Notes under the pieces: model-generated
Databases searched by the model: none
What the model was told of the DNA's origin: nothing
The model's input: only the letters and a program-made list of their open reading frames with translations
Origin: Impatiens glandulifera
Taxonomy: Eukaryota; Streptophyta; Magnoliopsida; Ericales; Balsaminaceae
NCBI RefSeq assembly: GCF_907164915.1
Contig: NC_061867.1
Span: 28,744,308-28,808,307 of the forward strand
Reading direction: 5' to 3'
Length of the DNA: 64,000 nt
Program-made: the position numbers and the translations under genes
Part shown: piece by piece, positions 3,259-56,554 of the stretch
Layout of the letters: each line of letters opens with the position of its first letter
Numbering within the stretch: position 1 is the first letter of the stretch

Positions 3259-3285
3259 TGGTTCGATCAGATATGTGCTTGTATA

Positions 3286-19074: not shown

Positions 19075-19547
19075 TGCTATGTCCCATTAGTTTCACGGTC
19101 CATTCAATGGATGTCGGGATTTATTGATGTCTAGGCCTCACATTGTACTAATCTCTCTAGCCCAAGGGTGGCCTAATCGTCTAAGTAAAGCCCACTACAA
19201 GAAATATTCTAGAAACATTGGACAAAGAATGACCTAGAGTAATTAATGTAGTAGTTGGGTAGTAGGCCCATTAATGAGGTAGTTGGGAGAATATCGTTAA
19301 TGGGGTAGTTGAGCATTATATAATTAATATGGTAGTTGGGTAGTATCATTAATGTAGTAGATGTAATTAGCTATATAAATACCTCAAAGGTACTTCTTTG
19401 TAAACACCAAGTATTCATTCAATATAATTCTTATTCTCAAATACTTTTTTTCTCTTAGTTTTTCTTTCATTGTCTAAAAAGGCTTACTAGCTAGAATCTG
19501 AATCGATCTAGCCTAGTGCTACACGGGTCGAATTTCATCCCATGACA
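19075..19547 (+). repeat. 5' LTR of TR-GAG-2
   Basis: TGCTATGTCCCATTAG to CATCCCATGACA. It contains short direct repeats of GGTAGTTGGGTAG with ATTAAT. A TATA box, TATATAAATA, lies at 19372-19381. Confidence 0.9.
19372..19381 (+). promoter_or_regulatory. TATA box in TR-GAG-2 5' LTR
   Basis: TATATAAATA about 165 bases before the LTR end. The 3' LTR has CTATAAATA at 22134-22142. Confidence 0.6.
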
Positions 19548-19549
19548 AG

Positions 19550-19561
19550 TAGTATTAGAGC
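19550..19561 (+). promoter_or_regulatory. Decayed TR-GAG-2 primer binding site
   Basis: TAGTATTAGAGC differs from TGGTATCAGAGC by one G-to-A and one C-to-T change, the pattern of methyl-cytosine deamination. Confidence 0.75.
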
Positions 19562-19593
19562 AAGGTTGTGCTTCCACATTCAAGCTACAAGAG

Positions 19594-21139
19594 ATGGATT
19601 TAAATACTGCTACCATCACTAAGGTTTTGACCGGTAAACATAAGGACAAGGGATCCAAGAGAGATAAGTTCGTCAAGAGAGGTGCTGCCATGGAAGTGCG
19701 GGTGACCCAGCTTGAAGAAGGCATGAGCAAACACAAAGAATCTCTCGAAGTGTTTAGCGCGGTGGCCAATAGAGTGACAGTGTTGGATGAGGTATGTGAA
19801 AAGTTGATGAATGTGGTCATGGGGATCATTAACAATTTGAATTGTAGCATTCGTGACGAAGTGCTGGGATCGGTTCTATGGGAGATTAATGATATCCAGC
19901 AGGAGGTACTCAAGACAATCCAAGGAAAATACCATACGATGATCGATGCTCTCCGAAGGGAAATGAGGGGGAGGTTCGATGCGATGGAAGGTCAGATTGG
20001 GTGGAATGGAGGGGAACTTCGTGGTGCGGCACCTCATCGAATGGATGTTCCCAATCCAACTCCATTCAAAGGCTCAAGGAGTGCAAGGGAAGTTGAGGAC
20101 TTCCTTTGGAACATGGAATGGTATTTTCGGGCATCAAACATACTTGATGATAGCACGAAGTTGTAGACAAACCCTTTCTTCCTGATAGAGATGGCTCTAT
20201 TGAGGTGGAGAATGTGTGAAATAGACATTGAACAAGGTACGTTGAGGATGGAAACATGGGAAGACTTCAAGACTGAATTCAAGCGTCAATTCTTCCCACA
20301 GAACGCTGACTTTGAGGCACCGAAGCGGCCACAACCGGACCATCAAGGAGTATGTGAAGGAGTTTCAAGAATTGATACTTGAGTTACCTAGTCTAACAGA
20401 ACAAGAGGCCATGTTCGCGTTTGTTAACGGCCTAAAAACTTGGGCATAGTTAGAACTGCAAAGATCCAAGGTGAATAACGTCTCCGAGGCAATTGCGATT
20501 GTAGAGAGGTTGATCGAGCTCAAGTTGTCCGTGGACAGGCCTAATTTCATTAGAGATGATGAAGATAAAGATGAGGGAGACCATCCACATGATAAGGAGA
20601 AAGGTGGGAGAGACCACCCACCCAATAAGTGGCAGCCAAACAACAATTCGGGAAGGAAAACCAACGAATCGGGTAAGATAAAAACTTGTCACATTTGTGG
20701 TGCTACCAACCACATAAAGTTCATGTGTCCATTCAAAGGTAAAAAGGTGGTGGCAGTTCTAGAAACTGAGTCCTCCGATGAGGAAGAAGGGACTCAAATA
20801 GGATCCTTAAGACTACTCAATGCTGTGAAGGCTAGTGTTACAAAACCGATCAAGGGAACAAATAGGGGCTCGATATTCTTGGATGCCTTGATCGGGGGAA
20901 GGAACATCAAAGAACTAGTGGATACTTGATCTACTCATAATTTCATGCGTGAAGGAGTGACTAAGGCGTTAGGTCTTCGCATCTACCCAATGAAAGGGGC
21001 GGTAAAGTCCGTGAATACAACAGCCAAACTAGTGACCGAGGAGGCTAAAAAAGTGCACACCAGGATCGGAGATTGGAATGGAACGGTCTTGTTTATGTTA
21101 GTTCCTATGGATGACTACGATGTAGTGTTAGGACTATAG
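19594..21139 (+). pseudogene. gag: Broken gypsy gag-protease (TR-GAG-2)
   Basis: From the ATG at 19594 the frame stays open for 190 codons through EVEDFLWNMEWYF, then TAG at 20164. It continues with WEDFKTEFKRQFF, a frame change near 20320, VNGLKTWA and a TAG, and a CCHC knuckle CHICGATNHIKFMC (about 20689-20730). The protease motif reads LVDT, then TGA, then STHNF: the Gly-Ala of the active site is spoiled (20926-20943). The frame ends near VVLGL at 21137. It is colinear with TR-GAG-1 at roughly four-fifths identity by eye but lacks the leader duplication. Role: coat protein and its protease; dead here. Confidence 0.85.
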
Positions 21140-21166
21140 TGGTTCGATTAGGTACGTGCTTGTATA

Positions 21167-21760
21167 ATGCCTTATTCTGATTCCTTAATCATTTTGAATC
21201 ATGGGAAGATTAGTGTGATACCAACAAGAAGAGAATCAGAGGGAATGGGTAAACTCTCGGCAATGCAGTTCAACCGATGTCGCAAACGTGGGAAAGAAAC
21301 ATTTTCCACTTTTTCCAGGATGGATGATGAGGACGGGTCCAATGGAAGAGAGGAAATACCCGAGGAAGTCCAGATAGCATGTGTTGAGGCCTTCAAGGGG
21401 CTCAAGGCCAAAACACCACACAACTAGCAACTCCATAAAGTTTGGCCACAAGTTACGTTGGTCAAAGTCACTCTACCTTCACTCTCGCCAAATCCTTAGG
21501 AGAGGAAGTAGATCTTGCTCGGGCATATTTGGACGAAGACACCAAGAAGCTGAAGAAATGGGCAGATCTAAAGAGGTGTGCAGTCAGGATTAAGGAGGGG
21601 GCCGAGGAATGGGGAATTTACTCCTAAAACAATGTAAGTATCTACAATCTGAGTTCAAGTGGCTTGTGTATAGATACGAAGGACCATTTAAAAATGAGCA
21701 GTATGTTGGAAAGGTCTACCCGATGTCAAGAATAGTCTGGAAAGAAATGATCACTTATGA
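21167..21760 (+). pseudogene. Linker and integrase-tail remnant (TR-GAG-2)
   Basis: MPYSDSLIILNHGKISVIP leads through IPEEVQIACVEAFKGLKAK, crosses a frame break near 21423, then TSYVGQSHSTFTLAKSLGEE and, after another frame break at about 21600, LLLKQCKYLQSEFKWLVYRY with EGPFKNEQYVGKV. The jump from linker to integrase tail is at the same residue as in TR-GAG-1 (SYVGQS versus CYVGQS). Confidence 0.75.
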
Positions 21761-25867: not shown

Positions 25868-27922
25868 TGATAGGATCGGCGTAATCAATAGAGATGGGGT
25901 CTGGCTATTGATAACGACTTTGGGAAAACGGTTTGGTAGAAATCCTATTAAAGATTTAAATCACTTTTTATTCTACACAAACCCTTACAAACTCTTGAAC
26001 GATTCAAATGTGGAAACATTTGCTCAGGTTTGAAGCTAAGAACAAAGAATGAGAAGATGACAGAATGTAAATGACACAGTAGTTTGTTTATGGATATTCG
26101 GAGCAAACTCTCCTACATCACCCCTTTTTCCAACCACCGGAAGGATTCACTATAAGTTTCTTAGAATCAAATACAGTCGCACGATTAGTTCACCGTTGAA
26201 CAAAACAGACTCTGTTCAACTTACAATATGATGAAGTATATCACTCAGCTAAAACTATGCTTTGATTCTAACTCTCTCTTGATAAACACACAATATAGCA
26301 AGAAAGCAGCTCTTTCGTATATCAGTTTGCGTATGATTCTCTAAGTATTGATAGATTGATTAATTTGTAATTCCTGTCATTCTTCCGTTGTCCTTGAAGA
26401 TCTTTAAATAAGGAACAGATACCAATGGTCGAATCTTCCATAATGACACGTAGCGAGCTTCCATTGGAACGCCTCCATAGTACACAAAAGACTTTGAGCA
26501 CCAGGATCGTGGCTGTACCAATATGGTAGTACGCTAAATATTCTTCTAGGATATTCCTGGAAGAAACAAGTAGTGGGAAGAATATTTGCTTACGTGGCAA
26601 TAATCAATTGGTTGCAACTGGCTATCGTACTAATCTTCACTGGAAAGTAGAGCAGGAGTAGCGTACAGCTAGTTGATCGTGGGTAGACGTGTGATAGCTT
26701 CAAGCAACTGCTTAAGCATGGCATTAGATGTATTTCACTTAAACGACCTCGTCTAATGAAATTAGACGCCCACGTCTAATAGCAGGACCCATTAGACCAC
26801 CTAGTCTAATGGCATTAGACAACACGTTTAATTATGCTTCCCTTCAGACTAATCTGAGGGAGTTAGACTTCACGTCTAACTCTCATACATTAGACTACAC
26901 GTCTAACTACACATCCCTTCAGACTAATCTGAAGGAGTTAGACTGCACGTCTAACTGCGTATCCGTTAGACTGCACGTCTAACTGCGTATCCGTTAGACT
27001 GCACGTCTAACTGCGTATCCGTTAGACTGCACGTCTAACTGCGTATCCGTTAGACTGCACGTCTAACTGCGTATCCGTTAGACTGCACGTCTAACTGCGT
27101 ATCCGTTAGACTGCACGTCTAACTGCGTATCCGTTAGACTGCACGTCTAACTGCGTATCCGTTAGACTGCACGTCTAACTGCGTATCCGTTAGACTGCAC
27201 GTCTAACTGCGTATCCGTTAGACTGCACGTCTAACTGCGTATCCGTTAGACTGCACGTCTAACTGCGTATCCGTTAGACTGCACGTCTAACTGCGTATCC
27301 GTTAGACTGCACGTCTAACTGCGTATCCGTTAGACTGCACGTCTAACTGCGTATCCGTTAGACTGCACGTCTAACTGCGTATCCGTTAGACTGCACGTCT
27401 AACTGAGTATCCGTTATACTGCACGTCTAACTACGTATCCGTTAGACTGCACGTCTAACTACGTATCCGTTAGACTGCACGTCTAACTACGTATCCGTTA
27501 GACTGCACGTCTAACTACGTATCCGTTAGACTGCACGTCTAACTACGTATCCGTTAGACTGCACGTCTAACTACGTATCCTTTAGACTGCACGTCTAACT
27601 ACATATCTGTTAGACTGCACGTCTAACTACGTATCTGTTAAACTACACGTCTAACTACGTATCTGTTAGACGGCACGTCTAACTACGTATCCGTTAGACT
27701 GCTCGTCTAACTACGTTTGTTAGACTGTACGTATAACTACGTCTATCTAATGCCCAATCAGTCTAATGAACCTCATTAAGACTTAGTCTAATATAACATG
27801 TTTTCGATACACCTGCACCAAAAAAGGGTTAGATGGCTTAAATTAAGTTTTATACACACTCATCATCAAAATTCCAATAGTCAAAATACTTTGATACTTA
27901 GTCAAAATAATTTGACCCAACA
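25868..27922 (-). repeat. LTR-a (outer 3' LTR of the array)
   Basis: On the + strand it runs from TGATAGGATCGGCGTAATC to AATTTGACCCAACA. Read on the minus strand it starts TGTTGGGTCAAATTATTTTG, the same start as Copia-1. 2055 bp, with a long 28-bp array. Confidence 0.92.
26930..27720. repeat. 28-bp palindromic array in LTR-a, homogeneous run
   Basis: Unit GTTAGACTGCACGTCTAAC plus a 9-base spacer. From about 26941 to 27409 some 17 consecutive units are identical, with the spacer TGCGTATCC not used in the other three LTRs; later units use TACGTATCC and vary. Each unit is a perfect 7-bp hairpin, and the spacer joins units into a second nested inverted repeat. Confidence 0.96.
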
Positions 27923-31100: not shown

Positions 31101-31510
31101 ATTTAGCAAAATAAATTGTGGTTTGAGAGCCTTCTTACTCCAGTTAAGTCGAATCTCCGAGCCATCAGTGGAGAAAACCGTATTCATCTCTTCCGTGACT
31201 TCCGATGGCAGATTCAAGTTGAATGTGTGCCCCTCCGACGGAAGTTCGAAGAACTCCGCATAAGAAGCTTCGTTGAAGAAGATTCTGGTGTGAATGTTGC
31301 AACAATAGAGTCGACGACCATCGTCGCCGATTTGAAAAACTCTCTTACTTCATTTTCATGGAATATGAACGGCCCGCCAAGATACTTTCCGAGACCGGAA
31401 TATTCAATGGTTCTGAACATCTTGACCACATCTTGTTGATCGAACGTGTAGACGAAGGGAAAATCAACCTGAAGAGTACAATGACCAAGTGTGATTCTCT
31501 TGTTTCCCAT
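28106..31510 (-). pseudogene. ORF3 of body III: N-domain, coiled coil, RGG tail
   Basis: The ATG at 31510 (MGNKRITLGHC) follows a TATA box at 31631-31640. Order on the minus strand: an N-terminal domain (VYTFDQQDVVKMFRTIEYSG, FIFHENEVREFFKSA, then in another frame FFELPSEGHTF and FILLNDVVAKAL); a Ser/Lys-rich basic stretch (30908-30441); a conserved block with HEIMRSARQAAGITI, FDTWVLNRMSIKYDE and LEKSAKAEEKALKRLDEIM (30265-29438); an acidic Glu/Ser-rich segment (29437-28904); a coiled coil (28861-28523); and a C-terminal RGG region (GDRGGRSTGGDRGG, 28488-28106) ending KREEQ. Frame breaks near 31300, 31000, 30380 and 28500 plus several stops. Unknown function; RGG and coiled coil suggest an RNA-binding oligomer. 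Confidence 0.72.
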
Positions 31511-31630
31511 TTTTCGACAGAATACGAACAGACACAAGATAAACAAGGGTTTCTGAGAGAGAAAATCAAAGAAATCTAGGGTTCTTAGAAAACTTGAGTG
31601 AGAAAAAGCTTTCAATCTCATGCAAAGTGT

Positions 31631-31640
31631 CCTTATATAG
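31631..31640 (-). promoter_or_regulatory. TATA box of ORF3, body III
   Basis: Minus-strand CTATATAAGG lies about 125 bases before the ORF3 ATG (31510), with a CT-rich leader (TTTTCTCTCTCAG). Body I has the weakened form CTATTTAAGG at 51820-51829. It points to a subgenomic transcript for ORF3. Confidence 0.6.
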
Positions 31641-32568
31641 ACTCCCAAGTGTCGCGTAGTATAACCGTCATATTTCCTAGGGGTATGGCCCATCAATTAA
31701 TATTTGACGTCCTTTCCAAGTACTCATCAATATTTTGAGGGTATATTAGTCATTTTCTCTTAACTTGAAAGACATGTATCATCATGTTATTCAGAGATGA
31801 CTATGTTTTCGTTTGAGCGGGAAAATTAGATATCGCCTCACGTGGGACAGCTATCCTTGATCGGTCTAATACACACGTAGTTAGACGTTTTTCTTATTTA
31901 CACAAACCTATGAAATCTAAACGTCTATTAGACGCATGGGTCTATTAGACACAAGCGTCTAATCATGTGTCTTATAAACGTCTAACGTCTATTAGACGTC
32001 GACGTTTAATTACGCAATAACATCACGTATTAAACGTGTGTTTGGTTAGACGTGAGCATCCACTTGCTCTTGTCGTAAAAATGTCTAACGTCTATTAGAC
32101 GTATACGTCTAATCGCGTAGGTTTTTAATTAATACACGCAGACTTAGATGCATAGAGTGTGAGCAAAAATACGTCTAAGAACACGGTTTTTCCTTTAGAC
32201 GACCTCGTCTAATATACCGATTAAGGCCTTTCGTCTGAGTGTATCTTTATTTTCAAAATAAATTTTCCCTCTCATTTTGTGCATGTACAAAATGAACAAA
32301 CAAATGTTTTGAGGTCCTTAGGACCAAAAATATTTTTAACACATAAAAACACTTAGTCCTCTAGAATGGCAAAGGTCATTGTTGATCTTCTAAACTGTAT
32401 ACTCAGAAGAGTATTCTCCATGCTTCCTTCTTGCAACTCTCCTACATCACCTACACAAGAAACTATTTACAAACTTTGGTACCCATATTCAATTGGGTCC
32501 TCGATCAATTAGTCCCTTAGGAATCCATATTTAAGATATTCTAATGGATTTCTCATTTTGTGTTGTGA

Positions 32569-34286
32569 TTAAGCGTATGATTTTGACTTAGCAGACGCCT
32601 TCGTGCTAGCCACTGATCCCTTAGCCTTTGAATATGATTTTCTTTTAAAATTCCTTGACTTTGAGTCAGGTTTTAGATTGACAGATTTGCTAGCTGCTTC
32701 TAACTTATTTTTCAACCAGCTAACAGTCGGCGGAACATAAGTTATTTCATTCTTCAAAACTACTTCTTCATGAATGGGATAAGATTCAATATCAGTTAAA
32801 CTCCCTTTAACAATGCTTATTGGCTTAAGCTTGTTGGTAGTTGAGTTTAACTTTTTGCAGGACCGATTTCGGTCATTGCCATCAAATCATAAACCAGATC
32901 TAGATCCAGCAGGTTTCAACAGACTAATCTGATGTTTGACCGCTTCTCCAGACCTTGTCCAAGCACTAACAACATAGTTTAGCCTTTTGTTTTCAGTAGA
33001 AAGAGTTTGAATCTGTTCCTTGAGCATCTCATTCTCAGATGAGATCTCTACTACTTTCTTTTCAAAAATATTTGATTCTTGAGTTTGAGATAAAACCGGT
33101 TGAAACTCTTTGGATAATGATTTTGTTTCATTTAGGGATTCTGCTAGCTTTCTGTACTCTATGACCATATCATCTAGTGCAGCTACCAGTTATTCCCTTA
33201 AAAACTTTTCAGAAGAAAAATCAAATACCTCATTTTCCTAAGTTTTTCTTCTTCTCTTGCCATGAAGCAAGCCACCTCGTCTTCATCACTGTCGATGGAT
33301 GAGAAATAAGAATCACGGTGGTTTCGTCTGTTCTTCCTGTCACCTACCATAAGAGCCTTCAACTCCTTTTCATTGTCATTTTTCTTCTCTTCACGCTTCG
33401 GCTTCCGACATTTCGAATGGTAATGACCTAGAATGCCACAGTTATAACATTTAACATTAGCTTTGGATTTCTTATTATCATTAGTATTTGAAGAGCTTGA
33501 GTTAGAGTTGATCTTCTTCAAGAAGTCCCCAAACTTCTTCACGAAGAGAGACATGGCATTGTTGCTGAACTGTTGAGCTGTTGTCTGCACGTCAGGAGCG
33601 GAAGGGGGCTCTTCAGAAGTCACCAACGCTTTGGCAATGATAATGGATGTGGATTGATCTTCTTCAATCCTAGAGTTCAGCTCGAACTAATAGGCCTTGA
33701 GATCAGCGAACAAATCAAAGAGTAAGATCTTGTTGAGGTCTTTGGATTCCCTCATAGCCATCGTCTTTATGTCCCATTCTCTCGGAAGAGCACACATGAC
33801 CTTAATATCAAGCTCCCTGTTGCTATAGGTCTTGCCAAGGATAGATAGAGTGTAGACAATCTAGCTAAATCTTGTGTCAAACTCGTTCATCGTTTCTCCG
33901 GAACGCATCTTGAAGCTGTCGAACTGTTGAGTGTCAACCATGATCTTGTTCTCCTTGGTTTGCTCATTTCCCTCACACAATTGAGTGAGTCTGTCCCAGA
34001 TCTCCTTAGAAGTATCACACTCGATGATATAGTTAAACATGTTGTCATCAAGAGATCTGTACAGAACATCTAAAGTCATGTTGTTGAGGTTGTTCTTCCT
34101 CTTGTCTTCATTGGTCCATTCAGATTCATCCTTATCGATCTTGATAGGACCATATGTGATGACACTCCACATGTCGTCATGAAGAGAAGAGAGATGAGCA
34201 TGAACTCTCTTCTTCCACACGATATAGTTTTCTCTAGAGAAAGTGGGGATTGCGGTAGCACTGACATCTTTGGTTATGGTCAACAT
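32569..34286 (-). pseudogene. gag: gag of body III
   Basis: The ATG at 34286 is 31 bases past the primer site. Domains: N-terminal FSRENYIVWKKRVHAHL and MWSVITYGPIKIDKDES; ECDTSKEIWDRLTQLCEGNE; an assembly region KDLNKILLFDLFADLKAY followed by an in-frame TAG (about 33688); a CCHC knuckle CYNCGILGHYHSKC (about 33455-33414); acidic FSSIDSDEDEVACFM; a coiled coil (33168-32887); and a Lys/Ser tail SKAKGSVASTKASAKSKSYA ending at 32569. Frame breaks lie near 33230 and 32880. It is the coat protein of a Sirevirus-type Copia, closely related to Copia-1 gag but with the zinc knuckle kept. Confidence 0.85.
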
Positions 34287-34330: not shown

Positions 34331-36102
34331 TGATAGGATCGCCGTAATCAATAAAGATGGGGGTTTGTCTATTGATAACGACTTCGGGAAAACGGTTTGA
34401 TAGAAATCTTGTTAAGGATTTAAATCACTTTCTATTCTACACAAACCCTTACAAACTCTTGAATGATTCAAGTGCGGAAACATTTTCTCAGGTTTTAAGC
34501 TAAGAACAAAGAATGAGAAGATGACAGAATGTAAATAACACAGCGGTTTATTTATGGATGTTCGGAGCAAACTCTCCTACGTCGCCCCTTCTTCCAACCA
34601 CCGGAAGGATTCACTATAAGTTTCTTATAATCAAATAAAGTCGCACGATTAGCTCACTATTGAACATAACAGACTTTGTTCAACTTACAATATGATAAAG
34701 TATATCACTCATCTAAAACAATGCTTTGATTCTAACTCTCTCTTGATAAACACACAGTATAGCAAGAAAACAGCTCTTTCGTATATCAGTTTGCGTATGA
34801 TTCTCTGAGTGTTGATAGATTGATTAATCTGCAATTCCTGTCGTTCTTCTGTTCTCCTTGAAGATCTTTAAATAAGGAACAGGTACCAATGGTCGAATCT
34901 TCCATAATGACACGTGGCGAGCTTCCTTTGGAACGTCTCCATAGTACACAGGAGACTTTGAGCAACAGGATCGTGGTTGTACCAATCTGGTAGTGCACCA
35001 AATATTCTTCTAGGATATTCCTGCAAGAAACAAGTAGTGGGAAGAATATTTGCTTACGTGGCATTAATCAATTGGTTGCAACTGGCTTTTGTACTAATCT
35101 TCACTGTAAAGTGGAGCAGGAGTAGCGTACAGCTAGTTGATCGTGGGTAGACGTGTGATAGATTTAAGCAACTGCTTAAGCATGGCATTAGATGTATTTC
35201 ACTTAAACAACCTCGTCTAATGAAATTAGACGCCCACGTCTAATAGCAGGATTCATTAGACCACCTTTGCTAATGGGATTAGACGACACGTATAATTATG
35301 GTTCCCTTCAGACTAATCTGAAGGTGTTAGACTTCATGTCTAACTCTCATACGTTAGACTACACGTCTAACTACACATCCCTTCAGACTAATCTGAAGGA
35401 GTTAGACTACACGTCTAACTTTCATACGTTAGATTGCACGTCTAACTACGCATTTGTTAGACTACACGTCTAACTACGTATCTGATAGATTGTACGTCTA
35501 ACTACGTATCCGTTAGACTGTAAGTCTAACTACGTATCCGTTAGACTATACGTCTAACTACGTATCCGTTAGACTGCACGTCTAATTACGTATCCGTTAG
35601 ACTGCACGTCTAACTACGTATCTGTTAGAGTGCACGTCTAACTACGTATCCGTTAGACTGTACGTCTAACTACGTATCCGTTAGACTGCACGTCTAACTA
35701 CGAATCTGTTAGATTACACGTCTAACTACATATCTGTTAGACTGGACGTCTAACTACGTATCTGTTAGACTACACGTCTAATTACGTATCTGTTAGACTA
35801 CACGTCTAACTACGTATCCGTTAGATTGCACGTCTAACTACGTATTCGTTAGACTGCTCGTCTAACTACGTCTGTTAGACTACACGTCTAACTAAGTTTG
35901 TTAGACTGCACGTCTAACTACGTCTATCTAATGCCCAATCAGTCTAATGAACCTTATTAAGACTTAGTCTAATATAACCTGTTTTCGATACACCAGCACC
36001 AAAAATGATTAGACGGCTTAAATTAAGTTTTATACACACTCATCATCAAAATTCAAATAGTCAAAATACTTTAATACTTAGTCAAAATAATTTGACCCAA
36101 CA
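34331..36102 (-). repeat. LTR-b (inner LTR)
   Basis: 1772 bp, the shortest of the four because its 28-bp array (about 35440-35925) has fewest units. It serves as both 3' LTR of body II and 5' LTR of body III. Confidence 0.92.
35440..35925. repeat. 28-bp palindromic array in LTR-b
   Basis: About 17 units of GTTAGACTGCACGTCTAAC-type hairpins with ACGTATC spacers and many single changes. Confidence 0.93.
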
Positions 36103-39462: not shown

Positions 39463-40339
39463 GAGTATTCCCCATGATTCCTTCCTGCAACTCTCCTACA
39501 TCACCTACACAAGAAACTATTTACAAACTTTGGTACCCACATTCAATTGGGTCCTCGATCAATTAGTCCATTAGGAATCCATATTTGAGATATTCTAATG
39601 AATTTCTCATTTTGTGTTGTGATTAAGAGTAAGATTTTGACTTAGCAGACGCCACTACAACAAAAAAGACCAATGGCGACGCTTAAAAAGATCTCTGCCA
39701 ACCCTTAAAAGCGTCGCTAAAAATATTACCGACACTTATTCTTGCGTCGCCAAAAGCAGGGTGGGCGCAAGTTTTAACAACGCTTATCTAAGCGTCGGTA
39801 TTAAAATTTTAAGCGTTGCCAAAGAGAGAATATTTAACGACGCTTATTTAAGCGTTGGTAACAGTAATTAAACGTCGCCAAAAGTCTAATTTATTTTTAA
39901 CCTATTATTTTAACAATTCTTTTAAAATTTTATTTATTTTTATTTATAATTCTACATTTTTTAAGATGTTTTTATTTAATTTTTGTTATAAATTAAATAA
40001 TTAAAGAAAAACATCAATACAATTTTCAAAGTAATAAAAAAACTTTAATAATTAAATAAAAAGAACATTAATTAATTAACTTACATTTAATGTTAAATTT
40101 ATTTAAATAAAATACATTAAATTTCAAATAAATAGTTCCTGAAAATAACTTAACTACTTTCAGTCACACTTCATTGATATCCTTTGGCGATCTCAAATCC
40201 TTTGGCTGACTTCATTGATATCCTTTGGCTATCAGTGTTGGTATAATTCCCTTAACTTGCTTATCAACTTCTATTAATGAAGTTGTGAAAACATATTAGA
40301 CAAAATTACTCAATACCATTAATGCTAAAGATAACTGTA

Positions 40340-42016
40340 AGTTTTTACCTCACTTTGCAGTCCGGCATTGTCACTAGTAAAACCTCTATTTCTTCACCCT
40401 AATTAAATATAAAATATAGAACATAAATTAGAAAGCAAAAGAATCAGACAATTGAAAACAAGAAAATAGTCATAGTTAATGTCAAGTTTGGTTCTCCTTT
40501 CGAATTTTATCACAAGTAACGAAATCATTTATTTTCAAAGAAAGTAAAAGGAGTATAACTAAGACATGCACTACAAACATGAAAGAAACATTTTCTCCTA
40601 GAACACATGATGAAGGCATGTAGAATAATAAATCAAAATAAATGAGGTTTACTAACCAGTCTTCTTAGAGAAGGTATAGCCTTTTTTGCTAACATAAGTA
40701 CGAGGATTTGGCGCTAGATGGTTTCTTAAATACTCTGTTTGTCCCTGCAAAGATCGTACACAATCATACATTAGGGCCCATCATAATTCACTTCATTATC
40801 AACCAAACTATCAAAAAATTATCCTTCATATAACATCAAACAAACTCTAGATGTCTAATATAAAACCTAAAATAACTGACATTAAGAAAGTGTTTTTTCA
40901 AAATGGTAAAAATTGTCATCTTTGTTTGACTCCTAAAACAAAGTGAGAAAGTGAACTAACCTTTGTGATCACACAAAGGCCAACATTGCTTCCACTGCCC
41001 AAGTCATTGAATATACTATAGCAAATAGCCTCAATTACCAACTTGACCCCATCCTCCTTCTGAGGACCGAAGGCCATAATCAGGAACAATAATTCAAATG
41101 ACTGTTTTTTTAATAAGTGATAACAGAATCTTACTTACAGTAAGACCTTCACCATATTTCATTCAAATATCGCCATAGCAGCAAGTGAACCAGAACTCAT
41201 CGTGGCAAATGGAAGAGTATCGGTTGATCCATGAGGATAAATCTGCAAACCGATTATTGCATAAAAATAACATTTTCTTATATAGTTGATTATTTTTCTG
41301 TAGATATAACTCATAGTGTGTAAATGTGGACCAATAATGTCAACTCCACCAAGAACCAAAGCACCAAGAACCAAATCAGTAGACATGTCCTTGGTAACTA
41401 AATAATCATCAAATCTGAGTTTATAAACTATTCTAAACAAAAAACATTCAAATAACAAGATAATATTAATACCCAAAAAGACGAGTTTTCAACAATGTAA
41501 GAGCAGTCACCACTCTCGAATTACAACCAGTTTGGAATCGATGTAACTTCAACTGTGAACTAACCATATCTAAACAGACAATAGAAACGACAAAAGACGT
41601 TTAACATTTTGTAAATCGATGCTATCATAATAACATATAGAAAACTATAACATCACCTGTAATAGCCTCGGTATCAGCCGCAGTACCAGCTCCACAACAA
41701 TAGATGTTAGGAGCCATGTAATGAATTTTCTCAAAATTTTTATCAGCCACAATTGGTCCTTCAGTAGCTCGGGTATCAGATCCAAAAAAACACCATCCTG
41801 TAAATCAATTCAGAAACAATAATTAATGCTTGTTCAATAGAGAGAAGTCAGAGAATCGTGAAGAAAAAAAGTTACCTAGAAGATTAAGCCAACAATGGTA
41901 GTTCCAGTCTTAAGGAAAGACAAAGATTTCAGTCTTTTCTTCAATAGAATTTCATTTCACCGACATAGGTCGAGATTAAATCCACCTTTAGGAGTAACAT
42001 CAATAGTTGTTGACAT
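40340..42016 (-). pseudogene. Captured 20S proteasome beta-2 subunit gene (PBB type)
   Basis: Eight exons on the minus strand, roughly 42016-41876, 41797-41657, 41569-41473, 41397-41316, 41242-41139, 41059-40961, 40744-40657 and about 40391-40340. Readings include [86 protein letters not shown] and PRTYVSKKGYTFSKKT. The catalytic N-terminal Thr (after KTG) is present. This is the trypsin-like subunit of the 20S core. Lesions: TGA after LCR and TAG at the end of exon 1, a ~15-bp duplication in exon 4, loss of the exon-4 donor GT, and a frameshift in exon 5. Introns show genomic, not RNA, capture. Confidence 0.93.
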
Positions 42017-42261
42017 CTTCGGTTCAAAAAACACCTAATTATCACAAATCATGAGAATAATTCATCATTTGATTTTAACCTATGGTATATACATTTCTAA
42101 TTCATATAAGATCAAGAAATCGAGATCAGAAATAGATAAAGCTCGAATCGACTTAATAGAGATGATAATACATGAATAAATGCAGATCTATAGATAGATA
42201 TTTTATGAAATGAAGGAGGAATACTTACAAATCACGAAATGGGAAGAACATAGAGTGATGA

Positions 42262-43476
42262 AGATATTTTATTCATACCAATGAAGAACAGTATTGCCCC
42301 AAACAATGCCAGACTCTAAACAAAAAAAATGACCATCAATTATGTTCCTTATCTTGAATCATAAAGAGAAAATGGACTGTTATTTGTACCTGTGTAAACT
42401 TAACAAAAAGTTGACCATATTCTTTTCTGTCATCATCGTAGTTGTAAAAGTTGTACAAGATTGGAGTGGCTATCAATTTGTGAAGAAGCTGAAACAGAAC
42501 AAAACTGTGAGATGAATTCAATATCAAATTCTGATAAAAAAGAAAAAGATTATACCCACTAAAGACCAGCAAATAGGCTCTAATTGAACTCCCAAATATG
42601 AAAAGAAAGCTTCCCAATCCCTTCATAACAATTGAAGCTGCAATTAAATGTTTGATCTGTCAAAGAAAAGAACAATCATATCAGAAAACAATTACGTTTT
42701 TTTTCAAAACCATCTTATAGCAGACTAACTAGTTGATTATTACTTCAACATCTGACACTTTCAAACCAGTATGATCAGTTGCATGCTTCAAGAAGATGTT
42801 GAACTTCGGTTTTAGGGTCTTAGCCGCTGGTCCACCATCAACCCCAAATTCACTGAACCCCTGAGAGCCAACATCAATGGTTTATTAGAAGATCTTATCA
42901 TCATTATATTCTATTTGCTTAAAGGGAAAGATGAATACTAATATATTAACAAATATCAAAGGCTACCATTTTCCTTTTGTTGCCTTCAGAATCAATAACT
43001 TATAAAAACTTAGATAAGAAGATCTACAAAGCTGTGTTACAAATATACTAAAGAAGATAAGATAAACCTAGGTCGAGACCTTCATAGCCATAAAATTTGA
43101 GAAATTACAGTCAATGTTCTGTTAAAGATACTTAACAAAACCACAATCATATATACACTATTTTATCACAAAAGAATACACCCTAGAGCGATCAATGGCC
43201 AGGAAAATCATCAAATGCGGTACTAAACCAACGAGATCTATTGATTAGAATTCGCATCATGATAAGCAGAAACTAGCTAAACATATTCTTGGAGAATGAA
43301 ACAGAGTTCATTTGTATCTTCCAACAACAACAAACTAGGAAGCAATAAAACATAGCATGAGATGAAAGTACGGAATCGTGCTTAAACAGGAAGAGCGAAA
43401 GCATAAAATGATGGATCTGATTAAAGAATGCAAAGAAGCTAACTTACTCTTGGCAATCTGAGAGAATGAAGACGGA
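42262..43476 (-). pseudogene. Captured HR-like lesion-inducer (DoxX-like) gene, 5' truncated
   Basis: Minus-strand exons: 43476-43448 (SVFILSDCQ), 42860-42744 (EFGVDGGPAAKTLKPKF, DHTGLKVSDVE), 42656-42567 (IKHLIAASIVMKGLGSFLFI, FGSSIRAYLL), 42488-42390 (LLHKLIATPILYNFYNYDDD, YGQLFVKFTQ) and 42315 to about 42262 (SLALFGAILFFIGMNK, then divergent to a stop). Exons 2-5 join in phase 0 with GT/AG borders and no stop. The family is a small plant membrane protein with about four spans (PF05514), linked to cell-death lesions when overexpressed. The usual start MAF... is absent: a TAA lies just upstream of SVFILS. It ends ~250 bp before the captured proteasome gene. It could be transcribed, but the N-terminus is lost. 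Confidence 0.88.
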
Positions 43477-44206
43477 AAACGAAGAGAAGTCTGTTTACAG
43501 AAATCCGTAACTTAGAAGAATTTAGATCAAACTCTTACTCTTCTTTGAATCTCGATGCGTACATAAAGTTAAAGGAGAGATGGTGTCCGGGAAAGACGAA
43601 GCGGCGCGGATGGATGATGCAGCAAAATTAGAGAAACCTAGTGGAGAGAAAATATTAATTGATGTTCTAAACTTTTCAGTTTATTAGTGCCCAAATGAAT
43701 AAATCCATTAAGAAGACACCATTAAAATAGCCCATATATCATTTGAAAAAAGCCCATACAAAATTCACAATACCATTAAATTAGCCCAATTATAAATTTA
43801 TTAAATTTAACTTGAAATTATAAATAATTTATTTAATAAATAATTTTATTATATTATTTATTTAAGAATATTAATTCTATTTAATTAATTTAATATTAAT
43901 AATGACTTTATATTTAATTAACTCAAAATATTAATAAATTTTAGGTTTGAGATAAAAATAAGTATATAATTTGATTTTAAAAAATAATAGTTTATATAAT
44001 TACAAAATAAAGTTTAAAATAAAAATTATAAAATATTAAAACAAAATTTTATCTAATTATTTACTTATAAATTTTTTTAAGGAATAATAAAATAAGGGTT
44101 GTTAAAGATATTGAAAGGTTGGCAAAAACATTTTTTTGCGGACTTTTGCCAACGCTTAATATGGGTTGGCAATTATGTGTCACCCAAAGCCCATTTTGTT
44201 GTAGTG

Positions 44207-45899
44207 CGCCTTTGTTTTAGCCACTGATCCCTTAGCCTTTGAAGATGATTTTCTTTTAAAACTCTTTGACTTTGAGTCAGGTTTTAGATTGACAGACTTG
44301 CTAGCTGCTTTTAACTTATTTTTCAACCAGCGAACAGTCGGCGGAACATATGTTATTTCATTCTTTAAAGCTACTTCTTCATGAATGGGATCAGATTCAA
44401 TATCAGTTAAACTCCCTTTAACAAAGCTTATTGGCTTAAGCTTGTTGGTAGTCGAGTTTAACTTTTTGTAGGACCGGTTTGGGTCATTGCCATCAAATCA
44501 TAAACCAGATCTAGATCCAGCAGGTTTCAATAGACTAATCTGATATTTGACCGCTTCTCCAGACCTTGTCCAAGCACTAACAACATATTTTAGCCTTTTG
44601 TTTTCAGTAGAAAGAGTTTGAATCTGTTCCTTGAGCATCTCATTCTCAAATGAGATCTCTACTACTTTCTTTTCAAAAATATTTGATTCTTGAGTTTGAG
44701 ATAAAACCGGTTGAAACTCTTTGGGTAAAAGAATTTGATTCATTTAGGGATTCTGCTAGCTTTCTGTACTCTATGACCATGTCATCTAGTGTAGCTACCA
44801 GTTGTTCCCTTGAAAACTTTTTAGAAGAAAAATCAAATACCTTAGTTTCCTGAGTTTCTTCTTCTTCTCTTGCCATGAAGCAAGCCACCTCGTCTTCATC
44901 ACTGTCGCTGGATGAGAAATAAGAATCACGGTGGTTTCGTCTATTCTTCCCGTCACCTGCCATAAGAGCCTTCAACTCATTTTCATTGTCATTTTTCTTC
45001 TCTTCACGCTTCGGCTTCCGACATTTTGATTGGTAATGACCTAGAATTCCACAATTATAACATTTAACATTAGCTTTGAATTTCTTATTATCATTAGAAT
45101 TTGAAGAGCATGAGTTAGAGTTGCTCTTTTTCATGAAGTCCCCAAACTTCTTCACGAAGAGAGACATAGCATCGTTGCTGAGCTGTTGAGCTGTTGTCTG
45201 CACGTCAGGAGCGGCAGGGGGCTCTTCAGAAGTCACCAATGCTTTGGCAATAATAATGGATGTGGATTGATCTTTTTCAATCCTAGATTTCAGCTCGAAC
45301 TAATAGGCCTTGAGATCAGCGAACAAATCAAAGAGCGAGATCTTGTTGAGGTCTTTGGATTCCCTCATAGCCATCGTTTTTATGTCCCATTCCCTCGGAA
45401 GAGAAGGCATGACCTTAATAGCAATCTCCCTATTGCTATAGGGCTTTCCAAGGATAGATAGAGTGTAGACAATCTGGCTAAACCTTGTGTCGAACTCGTT
45501 CATCGTTTCTCCGGGACGCATCTTGAATCTGTCGAACTGTTGAGTGGCAACCATGATCTTGTTCTCCTTGGTTTGCTCATTTCCCTCACACAGTTGAGTG
45601 AGTCTGTCTCAGATCTCCTTAGAAGTATCACACTCGATGATGTAGTTAAACATGTTGTCATCAAGAGATCTATACAGAACATCTAAAGCTATGTTGTTGA
45701 GGTTGTTCTTCCTCTTGTCTTCATTGGTCCATTCGGATTTCTCCTTATCGATCTTGATAGGACCATCTGTGATGACACTCCACATGTCGTCATGAAGAGA
45801 AGAGAGATGAGCATGAACTCTCTTCTTCCACACGATATAGTTTTCTCTAGAGAAAGTGGGGATTGTGGTTGCACTGGCATCTTTGGTTATGGTCGACAT
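44207..45899 (-). pseudogene. gag: gag of body II, tail split by the CACTA element
   Basis: The ATG at 45899 begins the FSRENYIVWKKRVHAHL domain. The text continues through DRFKMRPGETMNEFDTRFSQ and SLFDLFADLKAY, the shared in-frame TAG (about 45301), a CCHC knuckle CYNCGILGHYQSKC (about 45066-45025), YFSSSDSDEDEVACF, the coiled coil (about 44840-44510) and the Lys/Ser tail. A TGA at about 45610 and frame breaks near 44745 and 44500 are present. The CACTA insertion separates the last few codons, which lie at 39640-39652. This is the best-preserved middle part of the three gag copies. Confidence 0.83.
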
Positions 45900-45943: not shown

Positions 45944-48104
45944 TGATAGGATCGGCGTAATCAATAGAGATGGGGTCTTGCTATTAATAACGACTTCGGG
46001 AAAACGATTTGATAGAAATCCTGTTAAGGATTTAAATCACTTTCTATTCTACACAAACCCTTACAAACTCTTGAACGATTTAAGTGCGGAAATGTTTGCT
46101 CAGGTTTGAAGCTAAGAACAAAGAATGAGAAGATGATAGAATGTATATGACACAACAGTTTGTTTATGGATGTTCGGAGCAAACTCTCCTACGTCACCCC
46201 TTCTTCCAACCACCGGAAGGATTCACTATAAGTTTCTTAGAATCAAATACAGTCGCACGATTAGCTCACTGTTGAACAGAACAGACTCTGTTCAACTTAC
46301 AATATGATGAAGTATATCACTCAGCTAAAACAATGCTTTGATTCTAACTCTCTCTTGATAAACACACAGTATAGCAATAAAGCCGCTCTTTTGTATATCA
46401 GTTTGCGTATGATTCTCTGAGTATTGATAGATTGATTAATCTTCAATTCCTGTCGTTCTTCTGTTGTCCTTGAATATCTTTAAATAAGAAACAGGTACCA
46501 ATGGTCGAATCTTCCATAATGACATGTGGCGAGCTTCCATTAGAACGTCTCTATAGTACACAGAAGACTTTGAGTACCAAGATCGTGGCTGTACCAATCT
46601 GGTAGTGCGCCAAATATTCTTCTAGGATATTCCTGCAAGAAACAAGTAGTGGGAAGAATATTTGCTTACGTGGCATTAATCAATTGGTTGCAACTGGCTG
46701 TCGTACTAATCTTCACTAGAAAGTGGAGCAGGAGTAGCGTATAGCTAGTTGATTGTGGGTAGATGTGTAATAGCTTCAAGCAACTGCTTAAGCATGGCAT
46801 TAGATGTATTTCACTTAGACGACCTCGTCTAATGAAATTAGACGCCCACTTCTAATAGCAAGATTCATTAGACCACCTGGTCTAATGGGATTAGACGACG
46901 CGTCTAATTATGGTTCCCTTCAGATTAATCTGAAGGAGTTAGACTTCACGTCTAACTCTCATACATTAGACTACACGTCTAACTCTCATACATTAGACTA
47001 CACGTCTAACTACACATCCCTTCAGACTAATCTGAAGCAGTTAGACTACACGTCTAACTTTCATACGTTAGACTGCACGTCTAACTACGCATTTATTAGA
47101 CTACACGTCTAACTACGTATCTGATAAACTGTACGTCTAACTACGTATCTGTTAGACTGCACGTCTAACTACGTATCTGTTAAACTGCACGTCTAACTAC
47201 GTATCCGATAGATTGCACGTCTAACTACGTATTCGTTAGACTGCACGTCTAACTACGTATCCGTTAGACTGCACGTCTAACTACGTATCCGTTATACTGT
47301 ACGTCTAACTATGTATCCGTTAGACTGCACGTCTAACTACGTATCTGTTAGACTGCATGTCTAACTACGTATCTGTTAGACTGCACGTCTAACTACGTAT
47401 CCGTTAGACTGGACGTCTCACTACGTATCCGTTAGACTGTACGTCTAACTACGTATCCGTTAGACTGCACGTCTAACGACGTATCCATTAGACTGCACGT
47501 CTAACTACGTATCCGTTAGACTGCACGTCTAACTACGTATCCGTTAGACTGCACGTCTGACTACGTATCAGTTAGACTGCACGTCTAACTACGTATCCGT
47601 TAGACTGTACGTCTAACTACGTATCTGTTAGAATGTACGTCTAACTACGAATCCGTTAGATTGCACGTCTAACTACGAATCCGTTGGATTGCATGTCTAA
47701 TTACGTATCTGTTAGACTGCACGTCTAACTACGTATCCATTAGACTGTACGTCTAACTATGTATTTGTTAAACTATATGTCTAACTATGTATCCGTTAGA
47801 CTACACATCTAACTACGTATTTGTTAGACTTCTCGTCTAACTACGTATCTGTTAGACTGCACGTCTAACTATGTTTATTAGACTACACGTCTAACTCCGT
47901 GTATTAGACTGCACGTCTAACTACGTCTATCTAATGCCCAATCAGTCTAATGAACCTTATTAAGACTTAGTCTAATATAACCTATTTTCGATACACCTGC
48001 ACCAAAAACGATTAGACTGCTTAAATTAAGTTTTATACACACTCATCATCAAAATTCCACTAGTCAAAATACTTTGATACTTAATCAAAATAATTTGATC
48101 CAAC
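45944..48104 (-). repeat. LTR-c (inner LTR)
   Basis: 2161 bp, the longest of the four, ending on + at AATTTGATCCAACA (one C-to-T change against the others). Confidence 0.92.
47050..47925. repeat. 28-bp palindromic array in LTR-c
   Basis: About 30 units of the GTTAGAC...GTCTAAC hairpin repeat with varied spacers. No homogeneous run like that in LTR-a. Confidence 0.93.
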
Positions 48105-51200: not shown

Positions 51201-51700
51201 AAAATGGCCGTCATGTAGTCAAAACGATCTTGACTATATAAATGGAACGACCCCGCCTTCCCCTGGAGCGCTTTAGCCACCACATCATTTAGCAAAATAA
51301 ATTGTGGTTTGAGAGCCTTCTTACTCTAGTTAAGTCGAATCTCCGATCCATCGGCGGAGAAAACCGTCTTCATCTCTTCTATGACTTCCGATGGTAGATT
51401 CTAGTTGAATGTGTGCCCCTCTAACGGAAGTTCGAAGAACTCCGCATAAGAAGCTTCGTTGAAGAAGATTTCGGTGTTATTCACAGTTGCAACAATAGAG
51501 TCGACGACCATCGTCGCCGATTTGAAAAACTCCCTTACTTCATTTTCATGGAATATGAACGGCCTGCCAAGATACTTTCCGAGACCGCAATATTCAAGGG
51601 TTCTGAACATATCGACCACATCTTTTTGATCGAACGTGTAGACGAAGGGAAAATCAACATGTAGAGTACAATGACCAAGTGTGATTCTCTTGTTTCCCAT
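48290..51700 (-). pseudogene. ORF3 of body I
   Basis: The ATG at 51700 (MGNKRITLGHC) lies after a weakened TATA (51820-51829) and a CT-rich leader. N-domain FDQKDVVDMFRTLEYCGLGK, FIFHENEVREFFKSA, IFFNEASYAEFFELPLEGH is open to 51401. Then a Ser/Lys-rich segment (51094-50651), a conserved block (FDTWVLNRMSIKYDE... at about 50080-49754), and a long open frame 49687-48743 covering the acidic region and coiled coil (MATLQKNMAVMESNMMKIMK, HNEMEQTLKKNTYEF). The RGG tail follows in another frame (GDRGGRSTGGDRGG, 48560-48290). Best copy for the N-domain and coiled coil. Unknown function. No signal peptide or membrane span seen, so not a typical envelope protein. Confidence 0.75.
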
Positions 51701-52749
51701 TTTTGACAGAATACGAACAGACACAAGATAAACAAGGGTTTCTAAGAGAGAAAATCGAAGAAATCTAGGGTTCTTAGAAAACTTGAGTGAGAAAAAACTT
51801 TCAATCTCATGCAAAGTGTCCTTAAATAGACTCCCAAGAGTCGCGTAGTATAACCGTCATATTTCCTAGGGGTATGGCCCATCAATTAATATTAGACGTC
51901 CTTTCCAAGTACTCATCAATATTTTGAGGGTATATTAGTCATTGTCTCTTAACTTGAAAGACACGTGTCTTCATGTTATTCGGAGATGACTATGTTTTTG
52001 TTTGAGCGGGAAAATTAGATATCGCCTCACGTGGGACAGTTATCCTTGATCGGTCTAATACACACGTAGTTAGACGTTTTTCTTATTTACACCAACCTAT
52101 GAAATCTAAACGTCTATTAGACGCATGGGTCTATTAGACGCAAGCGTCTAATCATGTGTCTTATAAACGTCTAACGTCTATTAGACGTCGACGTCTAATT
52201 ACACATGAACATCACGTATTAGACGTGTGTTTGGTTAGACGTGAGCATCCACTTGCTCTTATCGTAAATATGTCTAACGTTTATTAGACGTATATGTCTA
52301 ACCGCGTAGGTTTTTAACCAAGACACGCAGACTTAGATGCATAGAGTGTGAGCAAAAATACGTCTAAGTATACGCTTTTTCCTTTAGACGACCTCGTCTA
52401 ATAGACCGATTAAGGCCTTTCGTCTAAGTGTATCTTTATTTTCAAAATAAATTTTCCCTCTCATTTTGTGCATGTACAAAATGAACAAACAAATGTTTTG
52501 AGGTCCTTAGGACCAAAAATATTTTTAACACATAAAAACACTTAGTCCTCTGGAATGGCAAAGGCCAGTGTTGATCTTCTAAACTGTATACTCAGAAAAG
52601 TATTCTCCATGCTTCCTTCCTGCAACTCTCCTGCATCACATACACAAGAAACTATTTACAAACTTTGGTACCCACATTCAATTGGGTCCTGGATTAATTT
52701 GTCCCTTAGTAATCCATATTTGAGATATTCTAATAGATTTCCCATTTTG

Positions 52750-54487
52750 TGTTGTGATTAATGCGTATGATTTTGACTTAGCAGACGCCTTCCTACTAGC
52801 CACTGATCCCTTAGACTTTGAAGATGATTTTCTTTTAAAACTCCTTGATTTTGAGTCAGGTTTTAGATTGACATAATTGCTAGCTGCTTCTAACTTATTT
52901 TTCAGTCAGCTAACAGTTTGTGGAACATAAGTTATTTCATTCTTCAAAGCTACTTCTTCATGAATGGGATCAGATTCAATATCAGTTAAACTCCCTTTAA
53001 CAAAGCTTATTGGTTTAAGCTTGTTGGTAGTTGAGTTTAACTTTTTGCAGGACCGGTTTGGGTCATTGCTATCAAATCCTAAACCAGATCTAGATCCAGC
53101 AGGTTTCAACAGACTAATCTGAAGTTTGACCACTTCTCCAGACCTTGTCCAAGCACTAAGCCTTTTGTTTTTAGTAGAAAGAGTTTGAATCTGTTCCTTG
53201 AGCAACTCATTCTCAGATGAGATCTCTACTACTTTCTTTTCAAAAATATTTGATTCTTGAGTTTGAGATAAAACCGGTTGAAACTCTTTGGGGTAAAGAT
53301 TTTGTTTCACTTAGGGATTCTGCTAGCTTTCTGTACTCTATGACCATGTCATCTAGTGCAGCTACCAGTTGTTCCCTTGAAAACTTTTCAGAAGAAAAAT
53401 CAAATACCTCAGTTTCCTGAGTTTCTTCTTCTTCTCTTGCCATGAAGCAAGCCACGTTGTGTTCATCACTATCGCTGGATGAGAAATAAGAATCACGGTG
53501 GTTTCGTCTGTTCTTCCCGTCACCTGCTATAAGAGCCTTCAACTCCTTTTCAATGTTATTTTTCTTCTCTTCACGCTTCGGCTTCCGACATTTCGATCGG
53601 TAATAACCTAGAATGCCACAGTTATAACATTTAACATTAAATTTGGATTTCTTATTATCATTAGAATTTTAAGAGCTCTAGTTAGAGTTGCTCTTCTTCA
53701 TGAAGTCCCCAAACTTCTTCATGAAGTCCCCAAACTTCTTCACGAAGAGAGACATAGCATCGCTGCTGAGTTGTTGAGTTGTTGTCTACACGTCAGGAGC
53801 GGCAGGGGGCTCTTCAGAAGTCACCAACTCTTTGGCAATGATAATGGATGTGGATTAATCTTCTTCAATCCTAGAGTTCAGCTCAAACTAATAGGCCTTG
53901 AGATCAGCGAACAAATCAAAGAGCGAGATCTTGTTGAGGTCTTTGGATTCCCTCATAGCCATCATCTTTATGTCTCATTCCCTCGGAAGAGCACGCATGA
54001 CCTTAATAGCAAGCTCCCTGTTGTTATAGGTCTTGCCAAGGATATATAAAGTGTACACAATCTGGATAAACCTTGTGTCGAACTCGTTCATCGTTTCTCT
54101 GAGACGCATCTTGAAGTTGTCAAACTATTGAGTGGCAACCATGATCTTGTTCTCCTTGGTTTGTTCATTGCCCTCACACAGTTGAGTGAGTCTGTCCCAG
54201 ATCTCCTTAGAAGTATCACACTCGATGATGTAGTTAAACATGTTGTCATCAAGAGATCTGTATAGAACATCTAAAGCCATGTTGTTGCGGTTGTTCTTCC
54301 TCTTGTCTTCACTGGTCCATTCGGATTTCTCCTTATCAATCTTGATAGGACCATCTGTGATGACACTCCACATGTCGTCATGAAGAGAAGAGAGATGAGC
54401 ATGAACTCTCTTCTTCCACACGATATAGTTTTCTCTAGAGAAAGTGGGGATTGCGGTAGCACTAGCATCTTTGGTTATGGTCGACAT
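52750..54487 (-). pseudogene. gag: gag of body I
   Basis: The ATG at 54487 opens 120 codons (FSRENYIVWKKRVHAHL to NKIMVATQ), then TAG at about 54126. It continues through EWDIKTMAMRESKDLNK, the shared TAG (about 53890), a 21-bp tandem duplication giving KKFGDFMKKFGDFMKK (53697-53738), a CCHC knuckle CYNCGILGYYRSKC whose His has become Tyr (about 53630-53589), SDSDEHNVACFM, the coiled coil (53330-53120) and the Lys/Ser tail. More stops than the other copies; non-functional. Confidence 0.83.
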
Positions 54488-54531: not shown

Positions 54532-56554
54532 TGATAGGATCGGCGTAATCAATAGAGATGGGGGTCTGGCTATTGATAACGACTTCGGGAAAACGGTTTG
54601 ATAGAAATCCTGTTAAGGATTTAAATCTCTTTCTATTCTATACAAACCCTTGCAAACTCTTGAACGATTCAAGTGCGGAAACGTTTGCTCAGGTTTGAAG
54701 CTAAGAACCAAGAATGAGAAAATGACAGAATGTAAATGACACAGCAGTTTGTTTATGGATGTTCAGAGCAAACTCTTCTACGTCACCCCTTCTTCCAACC
54801 ACCGGAAAGATTCACTATAAGTTTTTAGAATAAAATACAGTCACACGATTAGCTCACTATTGAAAAGAACAGACTTTATTCAACTTATAATATGATGAAG
54901 TATATCACTCAGCTAAAATAATTCTTTGATTCTAACTCTCTCTTGATAAACACACAGTATAGCAAGAAAGCAGTTCTTTGGTATATCGGTTTGCGTATGA
55001 TTCTCTAAGTATTGATAGATTGATTAATCTGCAATTCATGTCGTTCTTCCGTTATCCTTGAAGATCTTTAAATAAGGAACAGGTACCAACGGTTGAATCT
55101 TCCATAATGACACGTGGCAAGCTTCCATTGGAACGCCTCCATAGTACACAGCAGACTCTAAGCACCAGGATCGTGGTCGTACCAATCTGGTAGTGCGCCA
55201 AATATTCTTCTAGGATATTCCTGCAAGAAACGAGTAGTGGGAAGAATATTTGCTTACGTGGCATTAATCAATTGGTTGCAACTAGTTGTCGTACTAATCT
55301 TCACTGGAAAGTGGAGTAGGAGTAGCATACAGCTAGTTGATCGTGGGTAGACGTGTGCTAGCTTCAAGCAACTGCTTAAGCATGGTATTAGATGTATTTC
55401 ACTTAGACGACCTCGTCTAATGAAATTAGACGCCCACGTCTAATAGCAGGATCTATTATACCACCTGGTCTAATGGGATTAAACGACACGTCTAATTACG
55501 ATTCCCTTCAGACTAATCTGAAGGAGTTAGACTTCACGTCTAACTCTCATACGTTAGACTGCACGTCTAACTACACATCCCTTCAGACTAATCTGAAGGA
55601 GTTAGACTGTACGTGTAACTTTCATACGTTAGACTACACGTCTAACTACGTATTTGTTAGACTGCACGTCTAACTACGTATCTGTTAGACTGAACGTCTA
55701 ACTACGTATCCGTTAGACTGCACGTCTAACTACGTATCCGTTAGACTGCATGTCTAACTACGTATCTGTTAGACTGCACGTCTAACTACGTATTTGTTAG
55801 ACTGCACGTCTAACTACGTATCTGTTAGACTGCACGTCTAACTACGTATCCGTTAGACTGCACATCTAACTACATATTTGTTAGACTGCACGTCTAACTA
55901 CGTATTCGTTAGACTGCACGTCTAACTAGGTATCTGTTAGACTTCACGTCTACCTACGTATCCGTTAGACTGCAAATCTAACTACGTATCTGTTAGACTA
56001 CACGTCTAACTACGTATTCGTTAGACTGCACGTCTAACTACGTATTCGTTAGACTGCACGTCTAACTACGTATCTGTTAGACTACACGTCTAACTACGTA
56101 TCCGTTAGACTGCACGTCTAACTACGTATCCGTTAGACTGCACATCTAACTACGTATCCGTTAGACTATACGTCTAACTACGTATCTGTTAGACTTCACG
56201 TCTAACTATGTATTCGTTAGACTGCACGTCTAACTACGTATTTGTTAGACTGCACATCTAACAACATATCTGTTAGACTACACGTCTAACTACGTATCTG
56301 TTAGACTGCACGTCTAACTACATATCTGTTAGACTGCACGTCTAACTACGTCTATTAGACTGTACATCTAACTACGTATTCAATGACCAATCAGTCTAAT
56401 GAACCTCATTTAGACTTAGTCTAATATAACCTGTTTTCGATACACCTGCACCAAAAATGATTAAACGGCTTAAATTAAGTTTTATACACACTCATCATCA
56501 AAATTCCAATAGTCAAAATACTTTGACACTTAGTCAAAATAATTTGACCCAACA
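54532..56554 (-). repeat. LTR-d (outer 5' LTR of the array)
   Basis: 2023 bp, TGATAGGATCGGCG to AATTTGACCCAACA on +. It borders Copia-2 sequence CATTTAATGATTTTC. Confidence 0.92.
55620..56370. repeat. 28-bp palindromic array in LTR-d
   Basis: About 26 units of the hairpin repeat with T or C at the spacer position ACGTAT(C/T)(C/T)G. Confidence 0.93.

Follow-up and report, generated by a model that had tools for sequence, protein, structure and literature searches.

Does this locus hold a CACTA transposon that has taken up two host genes, and, if so, what has become of these genes? The window (the whole 64-kb stretch of Impatiens glandulifera DNA that was analysed) most likely contains, with a probability of about 0.9, a non-autonomous CACTA (EnSpm) element of the Pack-CACTA or Tpn1 type that carries genomic DNA of an HR-lesion membrane protein (HR) and of a proteasome beta-2 subunit (PBB), was mobilised in trans and landed in a copia-like array.

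The element, 4,554 bp in size, shows the traits of the CACTA superfamily, namely terminal inverted repeats that start with CACTA, a 3-bp target site duplication and short subterminal repeats. Its inverted ends (CACTACAACAAAA, 13 bp), which the first-pass annotation had described as perfect, are indeed so, and are the only two exact matches to this string in the 64-kb window; we take them to be similar to the end of snapdragon Tam1. The CGC directly outside each end, likewise correctly recognised in that annotation as a target duplication, is present on both sides of the element and as a single copy at two empty sites. The subterminal motif AAGCGTYG, which was picked post hoc, after inspection of the element, occurs eight times in the element (seven on the left, and the eighth on the right at 44150) versus three times in the remaining 59,446 bp. 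The boundaries of the element are as follows:

39650-39652, no strand: left CGC of the target site duplication (the empty sites, 32405-32845 and 52594-53035, have one CGC each)
39653-39665, plus strand: left terminal inverted repeat CACTACAACAAAA (exact motif match)
39677-39857, both strands: left subterminal repeats, seven AAGCGTYG (motif count)
44150-44157, minus strand: right subterminal copy of AAGCGTTG (motif count)
44194-44206, minus strand: right terminal inverted repeat (exact motif match)
44207-44209, no strand: target site duplication, right copy CGC (reading of the flank and empty sites)

Among the 29 stop-to-stop ORFs of at least 45 amino acids that overlap the element in the ORF listing, no transposase of its own is apparent by length. 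The longest two (109 and 107 amino acids) correspond to captured PBB and HR exons, respectively, and the third (105 amino acids) is mostly flanking gag. The apparent lack of a transposase is expected of a non-autonomous member and thus does not exclude the element from the CACTA superfamily; the enclosure of host genic DNA by such a non-autonomous element is the trait of Pack-CACTA.

The flanks of the element, joined with a single CGC, were aligned to the rest of the window. The site at 32405-32845 is identical to the joined flanks at 417 of 441 positions, without a gap and with the alignment running through the junction; the site at 52594-53035 is identical at 406 of 442 positions, with one gap that is located away from the junction. 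A third, looser site (9942-9556) matches at 306 of 394 positions with 15 gaps and has CGT at the target. Because the empty sites are joined exactly at the ends of the element, the latter is a real insertion into one repeat unit, of which the first two empty sites represent other copies. These units, about 8.2 kb long, start near 27133, 35326, 47319 and 55526, and show 90-93% identity in aligned blocks longer than 1.5 kb. They are denoted copia-like here because the third empty site lies within a related element (9-12 kb) with a copia-type reverse transcriptase domain (RVT_2). The zinc knuckle ORF of the repeat unit (44673-45239) adjoins the insertion, and five of the 10 flanking ORFs that were searched against Pfam produced matches, each to a retroelement domain.

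The array spans 25867-56559 and includes tracts of a 28-bp satellite (GTTAGACTGCACGTCTAACTACGTATCC type) at 26937-27742, 35401-35923, 47040-47926 and 55601-56379. About 1.1 kb, found in two other units at 31283-32404 and 51469-52593, is missing from the unit with the CACTA element. Elsewhere in the window, there are arrays of a 50-bp tandem repeat at 7250-7842 (11.9 copies) and 14948-15646 (14.0 copies), which carry GTTAGAC/GTCTAAC inverted motifs resembling those of the 28-bp satellite. A 405-bp unit is repeated four times in tandem at 318-1943 (93% match), beside an aspartic protease ORF (2590-3195), and the stretch 1533-3836 is related to 19424-21715 (83%).

The cargo was mapped with a purpose-written alignment, aware of frameshifts and introns, of the element against the host proteins P0241 (PBB) and P0012 (HR). 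The joined PBB exon translation contains the Proteasome domain (PF00227, E 4e-22); its top PDB chain is 7qve_p ('Proteasome subunit beta'), with beta type-7 chains among those that follow, and the best protein match, among the matches listed, is P0241, the I. glandulifera 'proteasome subunit beta type-7-B'. An HR-lesion gene body had been claimed to lie inside the element, and the joined HR exon translation confirms this by its HR_lesion domain (PF05514, E 2.2e-46). The features of the two bodies are listed below, with assignments by alignment unless indicated otherwise:

40363-40385, minus strand: PBB exon 8, eroded remnant (weak alignment)
40657-40744, minus strand: PBB exon 7
40961-41059, minus strand: PBB exon 6
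41139-41242, minus strand: PBB exon 5, frameshift at 41161
41315-41397, minus strand: PBB exon 4, frameshift at 41378, followed by the AT donor
41473-41569, minus strand: PBB exon 3
41657-41797, minus strand: PBB exon 2, frameshift at 41788
41876-42016, minus strand: PBB exon 1, ATG present, two stops (41959, 41878)
42235-42273, minus strand: foreign tail after truncated HR exon 5, reading NKISSSLYVLPIS (common to four I. glandulifera copies, with two changes in one)
42274-42315, minus strand: HR-lesion exon 5, truncated
42390-42488, minus strand: HR-lesion exon 4
42567-42656, minus strand: HR-lesion exon 3
42744-42862, minus strand: HR-lesion exon 2 (start as in the predicted protein P0001; aligner start 42858)
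43448-43504, minus strand: HR-lesion exon 1 remnant with a frameshift at 43480, lacking an ATG where one is expected

The PBB body consists of eight exons (42016-40363, minus strand) and shares 216 of 252 residues with P0241. It covers residues 1-256 of the 273 in that protein, and nothing recognisable follows past residue 256. Two stops (residues 20 and 47) and three frameshifts (residues 51, 133 and 178), together with the loss of the donor of one of the seven introns (AT for GT after residue 150) and the erosion of the last exon, leave the captured PBB plainly broken, and the description of a full proteasome beta-2 gene does not hold. A 25-bp direct repeat (96%; 40168-40192 and 40209-40233) is located downstream of the PBB body, perhaps a capture scar or a third fragment.

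The HR body comprises five exons (alignment span 43504-42253, minus strand; last recognisable HR base 42274), and matches P0012 at 98 of 140 residues, over residues 4-146 of 157, and P0056 at 96 of 134. Exon 1 lacks an ATG where one would be expected and has a frameshift at residue 13; the acceptor of intron 1, one of four introns, is two bases off AG. Past the FFIGM stretch the similarity is slight: the body is cut inside its last exon and ends in foreign sequence, which, from its place, might be guessed to be PBB leader sequence. Exons 2-5 contain no stops or frameshifts in the window copy, as against five such lesions in PBB. Neither captured body is an intact host gene. Thus, among the earlier claims, a common strand and a spacing of about 250 bp are correct (both bodies are on the minus strand, with 257 bp from HR base 42274 to the PBB ATG at 42016), whereas GT/AG borders in both genes are so only in part: introns are present, but PBB has the AT donor and the acceptor of HR intron 1 is off AG. 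The CpG observed/expected ratio is 0.553 in the captured part, 0.669 in the whole element and 0.787 in the rest of the window, a pattern that fits methylation decay, though confounded by intron and base content.

The HR body is not confined to this locus. The best matches of its exons are four I. glandulifera predicted proteins, P0001 (100%), P0002 (98%), P0003 (97%, partial) and P0004 (88%); two ordinary HR proteins of this species among the best 120 of 367 matches, P0012 and P0056, show 73 and 72% identity, respectively. Over 126 positions, with eight extra P0004 residues set aside, the four predicted proteins show 2 to 8 differences from one another, and all end in one foreign tail, which reads NKISSSLYVLPIS in three of them and NKRSSSLSVLPIS in the fourth. 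Since this tail is common to the four copies, the junction between it and the HR body predates their spread. P0002 also matches the upstream part of HR at 43638-43579 (20 of 20 residues); a further match, to 43564-43448, includes a gap of 16 residues. P0001 and P0004 are located on a contig of 56,467,983 bp, P0002 on one of 68,082,729 bp and P0003 on one of 23,010 bp; the latter may not represent a separate locus. As judged from these predicted proteins, the HR body with the foreign tail appears to have been amplified in I. glandulifera, with the window copy as one of four. A second PBB protein of this species is absent from the best 120 of 1,618 and from the best 120 of 6,677 matches listed; at the other HR loci, a broken PBB would often escape annotation.

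A tree built from 35 of the 120 listed HR proteins groups the four copies in a clade (100/100) on a stem of 0.47; a weakly supported fork (78/80) joins this clade to the two HR genes of I. glandulifera and a Rutidosis protein. Among the matches listed, the copies are no nearer to the I. glandulifera HR genes (73 and 72%) than to Bertholletia HR (73%), and no I. glandulifera HR gene closer than those of other plants, as would be expected of a donor, is found in the best 120 of 367. The window PBB, in a tree with 23 listed proteins, is sister to I. glandulifera PBB at 100/99, with the bootstrap unsettled, and the branches of this pair are 0.2 for the window PBB and 0.0038 for its host counterpart.

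These data bear on the number of captures. The single I. glandulifera PBB among the best 120 of 6,677 matches is located on a 56,467,983-bp contig, the same size as the contig of this locus, whereas two ordinary HR genes (best 120 of 367 matches) are located on contigs of 54,435,822 and 162,159,313 bp. Because the listed host PBB and HR genes reside on contigs of different size, two captures are favoured over that of one neighbouring pair; the contigs were compared by size label alone, and further HR genes may stand among unlisted matches. Two capture events therefore appear probable, at odds of about 3 to 1. The variant in which two neighbouring host genes were captured at once, with a later deletion between them, is unlikely but deserves consideration, given that HR and PBB lie on the same strand, head to tail and 257 bp apart; against it, in addition to the contigs, HR ends inside its last exon, and the HR stem of 0.47 and the PBB branch of 0.2 are unequal. 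Accordingly, of the first-pass view of a CACTA element capturing two adjacent host genes, the CACTA element with intron-bearing gene bodies stands, but adjacency in the host is the less probable case, the listed HR and PBB being on different-sized contigs and HR being cut before PBB.

The most curious feature of the locus is a predicted chimeric gene. Residues 1-30 of P0001 (LOC124943451) match the window at 45503-45414 in 30 of 30 positions, compared to 25 and 26 of 30 in two homologous units; hence, P0001 most likely corresponds to this very locus. The stretch in question is the following:

45414-45503, minus strand: gag stretch of the flanking repeat unit, likely the first exon of the predicted chimeric gene (P0001 residues 1-30)

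The donor after this stretch reads AAG|GTCATG, and in the gene model the first exon, in flanking gag, is followed by HR exon 2, so that the intron crosses the right end of the element. With exons 2-5 open, a common tail that is not of host origin and, at this locus, a gag exon spliced on, the amplified HR body could be a new gene made by transposable elements, encoding an expressed and selected gag-HR membrane protein, although we consider this improbable. In neutral simulations that model stops and omit indels (400 each, at 28 and 30% divergence), the exons remain stop-free in 0.22-0.23 of cases, and the chance of lesion-free exons is lower than this figure because of the omitted indels; much of the HR divergence may be older than the capture. 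By this simulation of the HR exons, selection is not separable from chance. Lesion-free HR exons 2-5 are compatible with decay, and the other three copies are visible only through protein annotation.

Less probable still is that the captured genes are functional, with a proteasome subunit and a cell-death protein travelling as one working unit. HR exons 2-5 are open in the copies found and a predicted NCBI protein covers the HR exons at this locus, but PBB is broken by two stops, three frameshifts and a lost donor, and HR has no start at the expected place, one frameshift and a truncated C-terminus. That the CACTA ends arose by chance around host genes in their native position is highly improbable: the CACTACAACAAAA pattern, with up to two mismatches, has seven matches in the window against a shuffle mean of 3.42 (six of 100 shuffles reach seven), but the ends and the CGC duplication are exact, and the empty sites, joined precisely at the ends, refute this reading. 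Retrocopies of transcripts, suggested by the location of the element in a retroelement array, are refuted by the introns retained in both genes, which imply that the cargo was taken up as DNA and not as cDNA.

Altogether, in the two-capture reading, host genomic DNA of the HR-lesion membrane protein and of proteasome beta-2 was taken up by a CACTA element, most likely in two events whose order we infer; the element would have spread by transposase supplied in trans, and the window copy landed in one unit of the copia-like array. The other three HR loci would be predicted to bear CACTA ends and the PBB body, and the cargo would have decayed under silencing.

Pack-CACTA elements were reportedly dealt with by Catoni et al. 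(2019), and the Tpn1 family of Ipomoea nil is said to have been treated by Kawasaki and Nitasaka (2004). PMC8903248 describes Pack-CACTA elements in Arabidopsis, maize and rice that contain genic DNA of several loci, some of it annotated as protein-coding; by comparison, the present element holds two nearly complete gene bodies and is known from sequence, its mobilisation being presumed. A capture model is reviewed in PMC13317346. In soybean, according to PMC1947982, the 5.7-kb CACTA element Tgm-Express1 carries introns and exons from five genes, and transcripts that originate outside the element are spliced to these exons. The two elements share a similar size, unrelated host genes with introns and an outside start spliced into captured exons, which here is only predicted; unlike the five fragments and RT-PCR data there, the present element has two larger bodies and a predicted chimeric gene. 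The Tpn1 elements of I. nil, as described in PMC5105172, capture host genes, and one yields chimeric transcripts; they resemble the present element in being non-autonomous CACTA with conserved ends and a captured genic interior, but have 28-bp terminal inverted repeats as opposed to the perfect 13-bp one here. In the literature searched, no report was found of Pack-CACTA capture in the host genus Impatiens, or of the CACTACAACAAAA string and this element.

The element is a clear instance of a known CACTA habit, not a new kind of system. Established by empty sites in the same array, it is a clear-cut case of the uptake of two nearly whole host gene bodies by a CACTA element, and the locus shows how captured cargo and retroelement exons come to be listed in public databases as predicted proteins. 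Were the gag-HR protein expressed and selected, a new gene would have been born from mobile elements of two kinds.
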